DNA from: a virus
IMG/VR virus record: IMGVR_UViG_3300042868_006028
Location: 1-27,832 of that record
DNA: 27,832 nucleotides
Direction: 5' to 3' (one strand)
Below the pieces are notes generated by a model. The model searched no databases. It was not told where the DNA came from and saw only the letters and a list, made by a program, of their open reading frames with translations. The translations under genes and the position numbers were made by a program. Shown here in pieces: positions 3,690 to 22,185 of the stretch (positions are counted from its first letter, which is position 1; every line of letters begins with the position of its first letter).

Positions 3690-5717
3690 CTAACCGCCTA
3701 AAGTTGCGTTTGCTAACCTGTTTCTATCTAACGCCTGTTGTGATGTTACTTGTCCTGAAACAACATAAGCTTGTATTGGTTGTTGGTTAAGACTTGCAAG
3801 TTGATTAACTCCACTTTGTCCAACTACGTTAAATTGTGGTGCGCTCATTGTTGGTACTGTTGCACCGCCACCACCACCATCGCCACCGCTTGGAACTGCT
3901 GTTCCTTGAAATTGTGTTGACATAATTTTTTTAACAGCAACTAAACCACCTGCTGTTGCTATTCCTGCTGCTATTCCACCACGAATAGGACTTGAAATAT
4001 CAGGTGGTAAAAACTGCGATTTGTAAGCGTCTCGTGCTGCTGCAAAAGTTGAAATTAACGTACTTGCAATTTGAAACTTTTTATTTAATTCAAATGCTTT
4101 TTTTGCATTTGCATTGTTTTTAATTATTGCTTTTTCCTTTTGTGCAGTTGTTAGGTTTTCGTTTGCTAAAACTTTGTCGTTAATTTCCTTGTATTTATTT
4201 TCACTCATTGTCGCCAAATCTTGCGTTATACTTAAAATTTGCTTCATTGACTCAATTATAAACTTTAGGTTTCTTTCCCTTAATGCTGTTTGTTCTGCTA
4301 AACTTGTTTTTAATTGTTCCCTTGACTTATCTCCAATTGCTTTTTCTGCTTGTAGTCTTTTAGTTCCTTCACTTACAATATTAGAAATAACACTTTGAGA
4401 ATTTGTTAACCTTATACTTGAATCTTCATTGTCATATTTTTTAGTTATTGCTGCTAAACCTAAACGCTTTTCTTCTTCTAATTTTGAAACATCAATCTTT
4501 GCTTTTTTGCCTTCTTCAATTAATTTGGTGTATTTTTTATTTATTGCATCAACTTCTTTTTCTTGGTCTGTTAAATTACTAACTCGTATTTCTTCGTTTA
4601 AACTTGCAATATTTTCGTTTAATGTTTTTATACGTTCTAATTCAACTTTAGCCGCTTCTTCGTTTTGTTGTTTAATTGCATCGTTATGCGTTTTGTTTGA
4701 TTCTTTTAACTTCGTGTTTTTGTCCGTGATTTCCTGTTGAACTTCAACAGCATTTTTTCTTATAATAGCCGTTTTATTTTTTTCGGATTCTTCTAAATCT
4801 TTGCGTTCTTCTGCTGAAGCTTTTCGTGATTCAATTGTTATTTCTCTTTGCTTTTCGATTAACTCATCACTTGCATCTGAATTAATTAAATTTGCTAAAG
4901 TATTCTTGTTTTTCTCGTATGTATTTTTTGCCGTTGCTAAACTTGCTTTGTTAAGTGCAACTTCTTCTTCTGCGTGTTTTAGTGCCAACGCCCTTAATGC
5001 TTTTGTACTTGCACCGGAAGCTTTAGCCATTTCGTATTCGTGTCCGTTCTTTGTTTTTAACGCTTCACTTGCACGTTCACTTGATTTTATTTGTTGCTTT
5101 AAAGCTGCATCATTTTTTTTAACTGCTGATTCGTTTTTTGCTGTTGCTTCTGTACTTGCTTGAAACATTTTTATTAAACCGTAACCAGCCGCTATTAAAG
5201 CAATAGTTGCCGCTATAATTGCTCCAATAGGGTTTAATGACATTGCTAAATTATAAGCATATTGAGCCGCCGTCATTATTCTTTGAACAATAGTATTTGC
5301 TTTTAATACCGCTCCAAGTTGTTTAAAACTATCAATGCTTTCTCCAATTGCTTGTGCGCCTGAAGCTATTGCCATTGCGCTTTGAACTTTTAACAACGCT
5401 TTTTCTACGTCTTCGTTTTGTTTTCCGAACGCTCCTAACGCACCCGTAACAACTGAAAAACCACCTGCAACACCTGTTAAAGAACTGCTTAACGCTTTAA
5501 ACTTTGCGTCTGGGTTAAACGCATCGGTCAACGCTTTTGCATCGCCTATCTTGTCTTTAAGAATAGCCGCTTTCTTTGCCGCTTCAACTGCTGCTGCTGA
5601 AGTTGCGCCAAATTTTTCTGACAAGTTTTGAACTTCAACTTGTGCTTGTTTAAGTTGTTGTTTTAAATTGCCTAAATTAGAACTTACTTCTAACTCAATT
5701 ACTTTTTTTTCAGCCAT
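3690..5717 (-). CDS. Tail tape measure protein
   Basis: 675 aa, ATG start. It has an N-terminal helical region, Gly/Ala-rich helices around 75-130 and a strongly hydrophobic segment (about 162-186, LNPIGAIIAATIALIAAGYG). A very long Lys/Glu-rich coiled coil covers about 190-500, then another Ala-rich helix, and a Gly/Pro/Gln-rich tail with a GGDGGGGG run follows. This is the standard tape measure design. At roughly 1.5 Å per residue it implies a tail near 100 nm, an estimate from length only. It follows the baseplate-type genes and a 55-aa gene whose stop overlaps its start by 8 nt. The gene lies upstream of the head genes, an unusual order. Confidence 0.85.
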   Translation of the reverse strand: MAEKKVIELEVSSNLGNLKQQLKQAQVEVQNLSEKFGATSAAAVEAAKKAAILKDKIGDAKALTDAFNPDAKFKALSSSLTGVAGGFSVVTGALGAFGKQNEDVEKALLKVQSAMAIASGAQAIGESIDSFKQLGAVLKANTIVQRIMTAAQYAYNLAMSLNPIGAIIAATIALIAAGYGLIKMFQASTEATAKNESAVKKNDAALKQQIKSSERASEALKTKNGHEYEMAKASGASTKALRALALKHAEEEVALNKASLATAKNTYEKNKNTLANLINSDASDELIEKQREITIESRKASAEERKDLEESEKNKTAIIRKNAVEVQQEITDKNTKLKESNKTHNDAIKQQNEEAAKVELERIKTLNENIASLNEEIRVSNLTDQEKEVDAINKKYTKLIEEGKKAKIDVSKLEEEKRLGLAAITKKYDNEDSSIRLTNSQSVISNIVSEGTKRLQAEKAIGDKSREQLKTSLAEQTALRERNLKFIIESMKQILSITQDLATMSENKYKEINDKVLANENLTTAQKEKAIIKNNANAKKAFELNKKFQIASTLISTFAAARDAYKSQFLPPDISSPIRGGIAAGIATAGGLVAVKKIMSTQFQGTAVPSGGDGGGGGATVPTMSAPQFNVVGQSGVNQLASLNQQPIQAYVVSGQVTSQQALDRNRLANATLGG

Positions 5718-18124: not shown

Positions 18125-19042
18125 TTAAATTGTTTGTTTACAAGCAAAAGTTTTTTCATATACATTTGGCGCTGGATTTGATTGTTCAAAATAACACAAT
18201 TTTTCTTTATCAAACCAAATTTCAATCATTCCAATATTTCCGTTTGAACGTGGTTTAATTTTATTAAAGTGTAATTCAGCTAAATTAAATGTAGGGTCTT
18301 GCCTGTGTACTGTTATCATACATTTACCACTATTAAACCATTCGCTACCACCTTTTAAATCGTAAGGAACAGGAGCGTTTCTTTTTCCGTTTTCTTTTTC
18401 AGTTAGTTTAGGGTGTATAATTGTATGCAAATGTAAATCGTTGTCTTCTGCTATTTGGTTTCTATACGGCAAAACATATTCTAAATATTGTGCATAGCCA
18501 CCGTAATCGTTATAAGGGTGGTTTAAATCCTTCCAACTATCAATTGAAGCTGTGTGTAGTTCATCGTGTTTTTTTAGTTCAACAGCCATATCCCAAAATT
18601 GAATTGGTGTAAGTTTTGCCTTAACATCTTTTTTAGTTAATACTTTAAAATGTTCTAAAACCCAATCAATAGCTTGTGTTATTTCTTTGTCTTCAATCAT
18701 GTTCCTATCTAAAGGGTTAAAACTCTTGCCTGTTTTCTTATGTATTAAATCAGCAATTATTTCTACATTAGAACCAACATCAGGGAAATAAACTAAATGC
18801 TTCCAACCATAAAATTTAGAAGTATTCATTAAACATTCCATTAATACTTGCGTTTTACCGCTCATAGGAAAACCTGTCCAATCCGTACAATTTCCTAAAC
18901 TCATAGAATAATGTTCGTGTAAACTTTTAAATCCTAAATATTTGCCTTTATTATTGTAATTGTCTCTATATTTAAATAGTTGAGTAATTACGTCTCCAGC
19001 TTCTGTAATTTTATATCCATTTAACTCCACGGTGCTTTCCAT
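18125..19042 (-). CDS. Twinkle/DnaB-type helicase core without a primase domain
   Basis: 305 aa RecA-fold ATPase. Walker A is at 57-64 (GFPMSGKT). The next strand carries FPDVGSNVE where the family has SPE, and Walker B is HTASIDSW (163-170). His-Pro (210-211), PYDLKGGSEWFN (226-237) and the VHRQDP arginine segment follow, with a C-terminal KIKPRSNGNIG. The order matches the hexameric helicase domain of T7 gp4 and Twinkle. No zinc or TOPRIM primase is fused or found nearby, so the host primase is probably used. It overlaps the winged-helix gene by 22 nt. Confidence 0.75.
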   Translation of the reverse strand: MESTVELNGYKITEAGDVITQLFKYRDNYNNKGKYLGFKSLHEHYSMSLGNCTDWTGFPMSGKTQVLMECLMNTSKFYGWKHLVYFPDVGSNVEIIADLIHKKTGKSFNPLDRNMIEDKEITQAIDWVLEHFKVLTKKDVKAKLTPIQFWDMAVELKKHDELHTASIDSWKDLNHPYNDYGGYAQYLEYVLPYRNQIAEDNDLHLHTIIHPKLTEKENGKRNAPVPYDLKGGSEWFNSGKCMITVHRQDPTFNLAELHFNKIKPRSNGNIGMIEIWFDKEKLCYFEQSNPAPNVYEKTFACKQTI

Positions 19043-19641
19043 TTTTTAGGTTCATTAACTTCTTGTATTGTTTGTATGTTGTCCCAAAACAAACCCTGCC
19101 AACCTTGTTCGATTGATTTGTTAATTACAAACTTACATTGTTCATTTGTATATTTTTCCATTTTAACTAAAATAGATTTTATGCTTTGTTGTGTTAAAGT
19201 CTTTTTTGCGGACTTCCTGTATTCAATCCAACTATCTAAAATCACTTCTTTTTCATTCTTTTCTTTCTTTTCATTCTTGTTAGTGGTTACTTGCTGGTTA
19301 CTTGTTGGTTCTTTAATGGTTACTTCGTTGGTTACAAGTTGATATTTAGCGTAGTTAACAACTTCAATTATAGTACCTTGCGAACTTGTTTTGATAGTTA
19401 TTTCGTTGGTTGATTTTAATTTGTCTAAAGCTGTTCTAACTTGCTGAATGCTTAAACGTGTTTCAAATGATAAAATTTCCCTTGATGTTATTACAGTTCC
19501 AATCTTTAAAACCATACCCCTATATTTTTTTTCTTTGTGGTTTGCCTTAAGTAGCAATTGTAAAAAAACACGAAAAGTAGTTGTATCTGAAAACCATTCC
19601 CAATCAATAATTTGCCTGTGTAATTTTATCCAACCGCTCAT
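19021..19641 (-). CDS. Replication organiser with N-terminal winged helix (DnaD/O-like)
   Basis: 206 aa. It starts MSGWIKLHRQIIDWEWFSDT, the opening of phage replisome organisers with a wHTH domain, and continues with TSREILSFETRLSIQQVRTA. A charged linker (NEKKEKNEKE) leads to a C-terminal helical part ending PKKWKAPWS. It directly precedes the helicase, as lambda O precedes P. Expected role: origin binding and helicase loading. The C-terminal half is not clearly a DnaD domain. Confidence 0.7.
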   Translation of the reverse strand: MSGWIKLHRQIIDWEWFSDTTTFRVFLQLLLKANHKEKKYRGMVLKIGTVITSREILSFETRLSIQQVRTALDKLKSTNEITIKTSSQGTIIEVVNYAKYQLVTNEVTIKEPTSNQQVTTNKNEKKEKNEKEVILDSWIEYRKSAKKTLTQQSIKSILVKMEKYTNEQCKFVINKSIEQGWQGLFWDNIQTIQEVNEPKKWKAPWS

Positions 19642-19817
19642 AACTCATTAAATAAATAAATTGATAAATAATGAATTAATTTAGCAGCATCTTTTGTGTT
19701 AATACAAACAGTCTTTGAAGTGTCGTTTTCAATAACTTCAAAACAAATGTTAGTTCCAATTGAAACAATCATTTTGTCATTTTTACTTTCAACACATTGT
19801 AAAATAATTTCTTCCAT
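19638..19817 (-). CDS. Small protein opening the replication operon (59 aa)
   Basis: ATG at 19817 and TGA at 19638, the latter forming ATGA with the replication organiser gene. It starts MEEIILQCVESKNDKMIVSI and has NTKDAAKLIHYLSIYLF near the end. Alternating strands with one helix suggest a small alpha/beta protein. It lies 21 nt downstream of the terminator of the structured RNA, so its expression likely depends on read-through. Function unknown. Confidence 0.7.
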   Translation of the reverse strand: MEEIILQCVESKNDKMIVSIGTNICFEVIENDTSKTVCINTKDAAKLIHYLSIYLFNEL

Positions 19818-19837: not shown

Positions 19838-19863
19838 AAAAAACCCCTGTTGAATCCGCAGGG
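19838..19863 (-). terminator. Intrinsic terminator at the 3' end of the structured RNA
   Basis: CCCTG pairs with CAGGG across a 9-nt loop and is followed by GTTTTTT on the minus strand. The stem is short but GC-rich, and the T run is continuous. It stands between the early operon and the 59-aa gene that opens the replication operon. Confidence 0.7.
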
Positions 19864-19929
19864 TCTCACTTCTGCTTCATTAACAAGGGTTAATAATTTT
19901 TTTTGTTCTATTACGTGAGACCGAACCAT
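19838..19929 (-). ncRNA. Structured leader or small RNA with switch-like hairpins
   Basis: The likely transcript runs from about 19929 (just after the TAAATTTG box) to the T run at 19838. Stem 1: GGTCTCAC (19915-19922) with GTGAGACC (19862-19869), perfect 8 bp. Stem 2 inside it: ATTAAC-CCTT-GTTAAT (19879-19894). Terminator: CCCTG (19859-19863) with CAGGG (19845-19849), then GTTTTTT. An alternative pairing, AACCCTTG (19884-19891) with CAGGGGTT (19842-19849), would destroy the terminator. It could be an attenuator of the replication operon or a trans-acting RNA. A 46-codon frame from ATG 19929 runs through the structure to 19789 and could instead be a leader peptide. Confidence 0.6.
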
Positions 19930-19933
19930 ATCG

Positions 19934-19963
19934 CAAATTTAATAATTAATTTAACATAAACAC
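19934..19963 (-). promoter_or_regulatory. Promoter of the structured RNA/replication operon
   Basis: TAAATTTG (19934-19941) followed by C matches the -7 box of the other promoters. Nineteen nt upstream lies GTG (19961-19963) in place of TTG. The box ends 4 nt before an ATG (19929), so any translation from it would be leaderless. It lies only 4 nt after the stop of the DnaA-like gene. Confidence 0.65.
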
Positions 19964-19966
19964 GAA

Positions 19967-20323
19967 TTAATAAAATTTATTTTTTATTCTTAATTGAATT
20001 TTACGCAAGTCTTTTAAGTTCTTTGCTTCTTTTATTTCTTTACGCAAGTCAAGTTCTGGACGTTCTAAACTTAAAAGAAGTTTGTAGTATTCAATGTCGT
20101 GTAAAAATAACTTGTCATTTACATCGCTTAAGTCTTGGTAAGTTTTTAAACCGTGTAGAATTGTTGCGTGGTTCATATTGAACAGGCTTCCAATTCCTTT
20201 AAGTGTGTGTCCGTCTTCGCGTAGCTTTCTGAACAAATAAATTCTTCGGTGTACTATTTCACGTTTTCGGTTTTTTTGTGCAAGTCCGTCTTGTTCTATT
20301 ATTTCTTTTATTAGTTCTATCAT
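19967..20323 (-). CDS. Stand-alone DnaA domain IV-like DNA-binding protein
   Basis: 118 aa with no AAA+ domain. The DnaA C-terminal signature is seen at about 39-61 (HTLKGIGSLFNMNHATILHG), close to the DnaA signature in which the HxT/SV helix contacts the DnaA box. Upstream HRRIYLFRKLRED matches the first helices of domain IV. The basic C-terminal helix is unique. It probably recognises DnaA-box-like DNA on the phage, or competes with host DnaA. Last gene of the early operon. Confidence 0.75.
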   Translation of the reverse strand: MIELIKEIIEQDGLAQKNRKREIVHRRIYLFRKLREDGHTLKGIGSLFNMNHATILHGLKTYQDLSDVNDKLFLHDIEYYKLLLSLERPELDLRKEIKEAKNLKDLRKIQLRIKNKFY

Positions 20324-21703: not shown

Positions 21704-21734
21704 TTGACAATATAAATAATTTATTGTATCTTTA
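21704..21734 (+). promoter_or_regulatory. Promoter of the plus-strand endonuclease gene
   Basis: TTGACA (21704-21709) and TATCTTTA (21727-21734, one change from TAnnTTTG) are spaced by 20 nt from TTG; read as a sigma-70 type, TTGACA and TATCTT are 17 nt apart. A start near 21740 would leave only about 5 nt before ATG 21745, suggesting a nearly leaderless mRNA. An imperfect 21-bp inverted repeat (21707-21727) lies between the boxes and could be an operator. Confidence 0.55.
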
Positions 21735-21744
21735 TAAAAAAAAT

Positions 21745-22185
21745 ATGACAAAAGAAAAATTATACCAGTTAATAGAAAATGGTGCTACAAGAAAATGTAA
21801 TTCTTGTAATGAAGTATTGCTTGTTAGTAAATTTCATATAAAAAAAGATATAAAACATAATAAGAATTATAGATTTAATTCTCCTTGTAAAATTTGCGCT
21901 AATGTAAATAGAGATGTAAATTATCAGAAAGCATATCAAAGAAAAAGAAATTACAATCTAACTACTGAACAATATAATATTAAATTACATTTTCAAAACT
22001 ATTCTTGTGCTATATGTAATATACATAGAGATGATTATTCTAAAGATTTTGCTGTTGACCATTGCCATAAAACAGGAAAGGTTAGGGCACTATTGTGCAA
22101 CAACTGTAATCTTGGGTTAGGGTTTTTTAAAGATAGTTCAAGCATTATAAAAAAAGCTATTGTCTATTTAGATAAACACAAATAG
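21745..22185 (+). CDS. Endonuclease VII-like HNH nuclease, lone plus-strand gene
   Basis: 146 aa from ATG 21745 (an in-frame TTG at 21724 lies in the promoter). An N-terminal zinc knuckle (Cys18, Cys21, Cys48, Cys51) is followed by a basic linker (KAYQRKRNYNL) and the endonuclease VII core. The core has CAIC (88-91), VDHCH (104-108, catalytic Asp105-His106) and LLCNNCNLGLG (117-126, Cys118, Cys121, Asn122). T4 endonuclease VII has the same metal ligands and D-H...N catalytic set. It cuts branched DNA or acts as a homing nuclease. Opposite strand, own promoter and own terminators suggest a later insertion (moron). Confidence 0.85.
   Translation: MTKEKLYQLIENGATRKCNSCNEVLLVSKFHIKKDIKHNKNYRFNSPCKICANVNRDVNYQKAYQRKRNYNLTTEQYNIKLHFQNYSCAICNIHRDDYSKDFAVDHCHKTGKVRALLCNNCNLGLGFFKDSSSIIKKAIVYLDKHK

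Follow-up and report, generated by a model that had tools for sequence, protein, structure and literature searches.

The window, meaning the whole 27,832-nt stretch of DNA that was analysed, is an IMG/VR virus contig carrying tailed-phage genes, nearly all of them on the minus strand. At 19930-19840 (minus strand) we delineated a compact element predicted to encode a roughly 90-nt RNA whose three helices are here called P1, P2 and P3, with a predicted transcript start immediately 5′ of P1. P1 and P3 have 8-nt loops that are complementary throughout (GGUCUCAC/GUGAGACC), giving a kissing-loop contact between two strands termed K and K′ below; each of these 8-mers, GGTCTCAC and GTGAGACC, occurs only once in the window. 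In the direction of transcription, the features are:

19967..20323, minus strand: upstream gene for a 118-aa protein with a DnaA domain IV-like helix-turn-helix (Pfam)
19934..19941, minus strand: -7 promoter box TAAATTTG (TAnnTTTG), Bacteroidota-type, by sequence pattern
19905..19926, minus strand: P1 hairpin, GTTC 19926-19923 / GAAC 19908-19905, with a 14-nt loop, by covariation
19915..19922, minus strand: kissing strand K, GGTCTCAC, inside the P1 loop, pairing with K′
19909..19911, minus strand: invariant ATA in the P1 loop, adjoining the P1 3′ strand, 100% in 92 distinct aligned elements
19842..19891, minus strand: P2 terminator stem, AACCCTTGTTAAT 19891-19879 / ATT-C-AACAGGGGTT 19855-19842, by covariation, MFE and RNAalifold
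19858..19875, minus strand: P3 inner hairpin, GCAG 19875-19872 / CTGC 19861-19858, loop AA + K′, by covariation
19862..19869, minus strand: kissing strand K′, GTGAGACC, inside the P3 loop, a perfect, covarying complement of K
19838..19843, minus strand: U tract TTTTTT of the predicted intrinsic terminator, found after P2 in homologues
19638..19817, minus strand: next gene, a 59-codon ORF (ORF call) with its ATG 20 nt past the U tract
19021-19641, minus strand: DnaD-like helicase loader, after the 59-codon ORF
18125-19042, minus strand: ATPase of primase/helicase type, after the DnaD-like loader

The upstream 118-aa protein matched the Pfam family Bac_DnaA_C with an E-value of 5.9e-7 and 29.9 bits, just under the cut-off of 31.5, and the 59-aa ORF gave no Pfam match above cut-off. 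A NinG endonuclease gene also lies downstream. P1 and P2 are separated by an A-rich linker of 13 nt. The only sizeable plausible plus-strand gene of the window is located at 21724-22185; judged by eye from its Cys/His pattern, its product reads like an HNH/endonuclease VII-type protein.

Searching viral contigs for a pattern with both 8-mers of the window yielded at least 120 stretches, and most among the matches listed were clear relatives. Because this pattern fixes the loop letters, loci picked by their proteins were used as the main sample. We built a covariance model from 13 sequences, based on P1-P3 only and with K left unpaired. The model recognized the window element with 94.5 bits (E 4.6e-17, whole window searched) and found 54 matches in helicase-chosen loci, representing 37 distinct sequences. 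In these 37 sequences 97.5% of the cells are paired, compared to 35-43% in slid controls and 70% in shuffles. Compensatory changes in homologues, which the earlier note had set as the test of its proposal, are clearly present, with two-sided changes in 23 of 28 pairs. They affect all five pairs of P1 (96% paired), nine of the 11 pairs of P2 (96% paired) and three of the four pairs of P3 (100% paired), the inner hairpin that had been recognized before. For the K/K′ helix, although absent from the model, 99.3% of the cells are paired and 6/8 pairs covary. This kissing pairing (99%) spans at least nine loop sequences; beside relatives of the DnaA-like protein, the same site holds the loop pairs CGTCTAAC/GTTAGACG, GGTCTAAC/GTTAGACC and GGCTCGAC/GTCGAGTC. 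Little or no variation is seen in the AC/GT end of K, the ATA of the first loop and an A in the internal loop between P2 and P3, and the offset from K to K′ varies from 51 to 58 nt. Comparison of the relatives demonstrates the three helices together with the K/K′ pairing, and we regard the structure as established through covariation with hardly any residual doubt. Loops that always match while their letters change point to a new RNA family.

When every pair of alignment columns in 92 elements was scanned for mutual information, the pairs of P1-P3 and K ranked at the top, and no competing or additional helix emerged. The long-range pairing of GGTCTCAC (19922-19915) with GTGAGACC (19869-19862) seen previously is real, but it is a loop-loop contact compatible with P2 and not an alternative to it. 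The mutually exclusive stems of a switch, in contrast, were not recovered. The pairing AACCCTTG/CAGGGGTT, said to remove the terminator stem, is in fact the terminator stem P2, and the stem that had been proposed for the terminator, CCCTG/CAGGG, failed with 58% of cells paired versus 61% in shuffles; what stands of that terminator is the U-tract terminator ending at 19838. The scan shows no helix competing in the manner of the exclusive terminator and antiterminator helices that mark a riboswitch or a classical attenuator. The 46-codon frame starting at 19929 is present in the window but broken in most relatives. It is open in 29 of 91, where shuffles expect 10-12, and the excess is mostly due to close kin; we therefore rejected a leader-peptide attenuator or coding frame for lack of conservation.

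The MFE structure of the window RNA consists of exactly P1+P2+P3 at -20.5 kcal/mol. RNAalifold recovers P1-P3 unguided, with a P2 identical to that of the MFE fold. Programs of the MFE type are unable to place the kissing helix, for which we computed approximately -12.6 kcal/mol as a free duplex. Folding K as a nested helix instead was rejected (-17.5 vs -20.5 kcal/mol for the P1+P2+P3 fold). Because the single-sequence MFE is weak and unremarkable on its own (z -1.25), the structural evidence is comparative.

None of the tested families includes the element. At the gathering score, Rfam 15 gave no matches for the window (Flavo-1, 6S and C4 included) or for nine further sources with relatives or look-alikes, so that the Flavo-1 and 6S-type RNAs suggested for comparison are excluded along with every other Rfam family. 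The strongest of the weak matches reached 21.4 bits, where the cut-off is 42, and is not credible. Blastn of the element against phages returned chance pieces only, and Polaribacter blastn matches were rejected because they are located in the structural gene region. Copies of the GGTCTCAC type were absent from 84,980 species genomes (exact pattern), as were copies of the element from 396 Bacteroidota genomes searched by the covariance model under stricter filters; the absence of other loop types from bacterial genomes is less certain. Within bacterial genomes, helicase relatives were found in two MAG contigs only.

Dozens of phage contigs carry the element, as do cultured phages of Flavobacterium, Cellulophaga and Tenacibaculum, so that it is known from many phages with flavobacteria-like hosts. 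Flavobacterium phage FL-1 has the element with an E-value of 4.8e-9 (K CGTCTCAC), Cellulophaga phage phi18:3 with 39.8 bits (K CTTCTGAC) and Tenacibaculum phage JQ with 32.4 bits (K′ GGTAGGATGC). Downstream of the element, both phi18:3 and JQ have a small ORF followed by a DnaD-like gene. The element of phi19:3, read by eye, has loops CTCTCAC/GTGAGAG and a weak P1, precedes a DUF6291-type initiator and is an architectural look-alike, not a proven homologue. Phages VK58, elemoA and phi40:1 gave no model match, and some close relatives are without the element. Within the phage records searched, the element occurs once per record, except in one 47-kb contig that has two copies.

The promoter box noted before was confirmed as TAAATTTG at 19941-19934. 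A TAnnTTTG motif lies 4-10 nt 5′ of P1 in 88 of 94 relatives, where shuffles expect 3.5, and the RNA is therefore predicted to begin with P1. Upstream genes are co-directional in 112/113 cases and usually end 11-44 nt before P1; downstream genes are co-directional in 97 of the 99 loci with a called downstream gene. The downstream start codon usually lies within approximately 20 nt of the U tract, and this distance is nearly fixed in most loci and too short for a second promoter. The families of the downstream genes vary, comprising DnaD-like, DUF6291, Lin1244_N, HTH_36, NUMOD4-HNH endonuclease and small ORFs. Loci L161, L253 and L264 share the upstream gene and the element but continue with three different initiators, and in relatives without the element the initiator gene follows the upstream gene directly. 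On the minus strand from the element to 16801 there is no other intergenic -7 box, and for this reason the genes between 19817 and 16832 probably depend on read-through. Further TATATTTG boxes are located at gene starts at 16801-16794 and 21437-21430 (minus strand), probably as promoters of recombination genes and early small ORFs.

The sequence patterns and the covariation strongly support a regulatory RNA heading the replication operon and equipped with a promoter and a terminator of its own, as the earlier note had suggested. We propose, at a probability of about 0.5, that this element is a structured cis-acting leader RNA attenuating the phage replication operon. Transcription would begin at the TAnnTTTG promoter and the first transcribed nucleotides would form P1. 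As the polymerase advances, loop K would capture K′ while P3 and P2 close, leaving the whole transcript in a single compact kissing-loop fold, and the P2 stem with the U tract would stop transcription some 20 nt short of the start codon. Polymerases coming from the element's promoter or from upstream genes would have to pass the terminator to reach the genes for the replication initiator, the helicase and NinG, and this would keep the dose of replication proteins low and possibly regulated. In this scheme the promoter box, the U tract and the fixed spacing to the next gene are evident as sequence patterns, and we infer that the RNA is made and terminates, that K pairs with K′ within one molecule and that read-through sets the dose.

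The arrangement itself, with a promoter of its own and a terminator directly before a co-directional gene, is that of a promoter-leader-terminator cis-element at the level of sequence signals. A role in cis is favoured because the element is so closely tied in position to the following start codon, and covariation, promoter box, co-directional genes and variability of the downstream gene add to it, as do the arrangement in element-free relatives and a structural cousin before a homing endonuclease gene (L004). Against an attenuator in cis, the covariation scan shows no antiterminator or ligand switch, the element is missing from some close relatives, and P1 at the predicted start site is also expected of an independent sRNA. 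Moreover, intramolecular K/K′ pairing would need a bend, since the 13-nt linker is short for a straight P1-K-P3-P2 stack. If correct, the proposal suggests a common control point of replication in phages of Bacteroidota. It would also offer a directly testable case in which kissing ties a terminator hairpin to an upstream hairpin. The covarying structure itself, absent from Rfam, includes a loop-loop contact of a kind seldom provable by sequence alone, and the natural, interchangeable loop pairs could also find use as orthogonal RNA parts.

The main rival, less probable but a serious one, is a free-standing sRNA with trans targets among the RNAs or proteins of host or phage, for which the site before the replication genes would merely be a convenient slot for early expression. 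The signals form a complete unit from promoter to terminator with a 5′ hairpin, present in a single copy per phage, and a protein could bind at the invariant unpaired ATA, the AC/GT end and the conserved, purine-rich loop inside the hairpin. A trans-acting RNA does not, however, account well for the tight distance to the start codons of many different genes, and K, the loop one would expect to do the pairing, shows no conservation, with neither 8-mer found elsewhere in the window.

A further reading, which we consider rather improbable, arises from the history of the loops. Across the tree of 52 helicase genes there are at least 25 switches of K type (minimum 9), and helicases that are 97-99% identical often differ in K. 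These changes always keep the pairing, types that differ in K differ in the P1 stem as well, most types pair poorly with other types, and the type is not clearly linked to the family of the downstream gene. All of this would fit an attenuator in which kissing occurs between copies as well as within one, with terminated copies contacting nascent copies through K/K′. The terminated RNA might then sense genome number, tune termination and damp the replication operon, and each K type would define its own specificity group among phages. If so, K/K′ pairs would be incompatibility types deciding which co-infecting phages restrain each other. Intramolecular kissing, however, accounts for the same covariation, and recombination of the region is the simplest cause of the frequent switching.

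More doubtful still is a replication-origin RNA, a short transcript or promoter that opens the origin or primes synthesis beside the initiator gene. The element usually heads replication initiator cassettes of different families, and in the window it adjoins the DnaA domain IV-like gene; its terminator, its absence from some close relatives and the cousins or copies preceding homing endonuclease genes speak against this role. A feature acting as DNA, either two inverted protein half-sites or a recombination boundary, could be imagined from the 8-bp inverted repeat formed by K and K′ and from the frequent exchange of the following gene, but it is very unlikely and already disfavoured by the covariation and the mutual-information scan, as RNA-like covariation extends to three further stems, nested and ending in a U tract, and the K to K′ offset varies.

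Among known systems, the element is most like an attenuator leader, yet without the antiterminator that defines the classical kind. In the pT181-type antisense transcription attenuator of the repC leader, loop-loop kissing triggers the terminator, and orthogonal variants differ in the loop and upper stem (PMC3753616). The likeness extends to the position of the leader before a replication initiator gene, the loop-loop pairing, the terminator just before the gene and K types that also differ in loop and stem. In contrast, the element has both loops in one RNA and no preemptor/antiterminator helix, and no TAnnTTTG box for an antisense RNA was found on the plus strand between 18169 and 22525; with regard to this promoter type, we rejected membership in the pT181 type, which uses an antisense RNA from the opposite strand. 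In the rep leader pseudoknots of IncI/IncB-type plasmids, a loop likewise pairs ahead of the gene for a replication initiator, but these pseudoknots control translation and have no terminator between pseudoknot and gene. C4 antisense RNA of P1/P7-like phages (RF01695) resembles the element as a small two-hairpin phage RNA with loop-based pairing; it pairs with target sites elsewhere, whereas the two loops of the element pair with each other. The put RNA of phage HK022 is also a structured nascent RNA just after an early phage promoter, but makes the polymerase read through terminators, whereas the element's RNA ends in one. Type III antitoxin RNAs (ToxI, CptI) share a compact pseudoknot-like RNA with a terminator before the gene; the element differs in having no tandem repeats and in preceding replication initiators and other genes instead of one toxin family.

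A generic finder for this architecture was loose, with 13 matches in reversed controls compared to 252 real ones. Because it returns chance matches, loci L004, L158, L192, L287 and L142/L155 are look-alikes and not proven homologues, and being few as well they are treated as leads. L158 and L142/L155 have a promoter, a small hairpin and a terminator hairpin between the upstream gene and the initiator, at the same site as the element, with complementary loops of unrelated letters (AGGCAG/CTGCCT and GATGCA/TGCATC, respectively). In L004, a second promoter-hairpin-terminator element at 4558-4662 has loops GTTACGG/CCGTAAC and lies directly before a NUMOD4-HNH homing endonuclease gene. The same second element occurs in L030, L083, L084, L107, L182 and L238, and all these phages, including L004, have the main element as well. 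A larger leader of another kind, again made up of promoter, RNA and terminator, was observed in the Riemerella phages PJA1 (L289 1480-1715), CRP5 (L290 1370-1705) and CRP12 (L291 1370-1725), with a 15-bp long-range stem TGTTAATCCAAGTGC/GCACTTGGATTAACA in PJA1. These leaders end some 20 nt upstream of a gene near NinG or an antirepressor gene and possibly represent another class of phage leader RNA.
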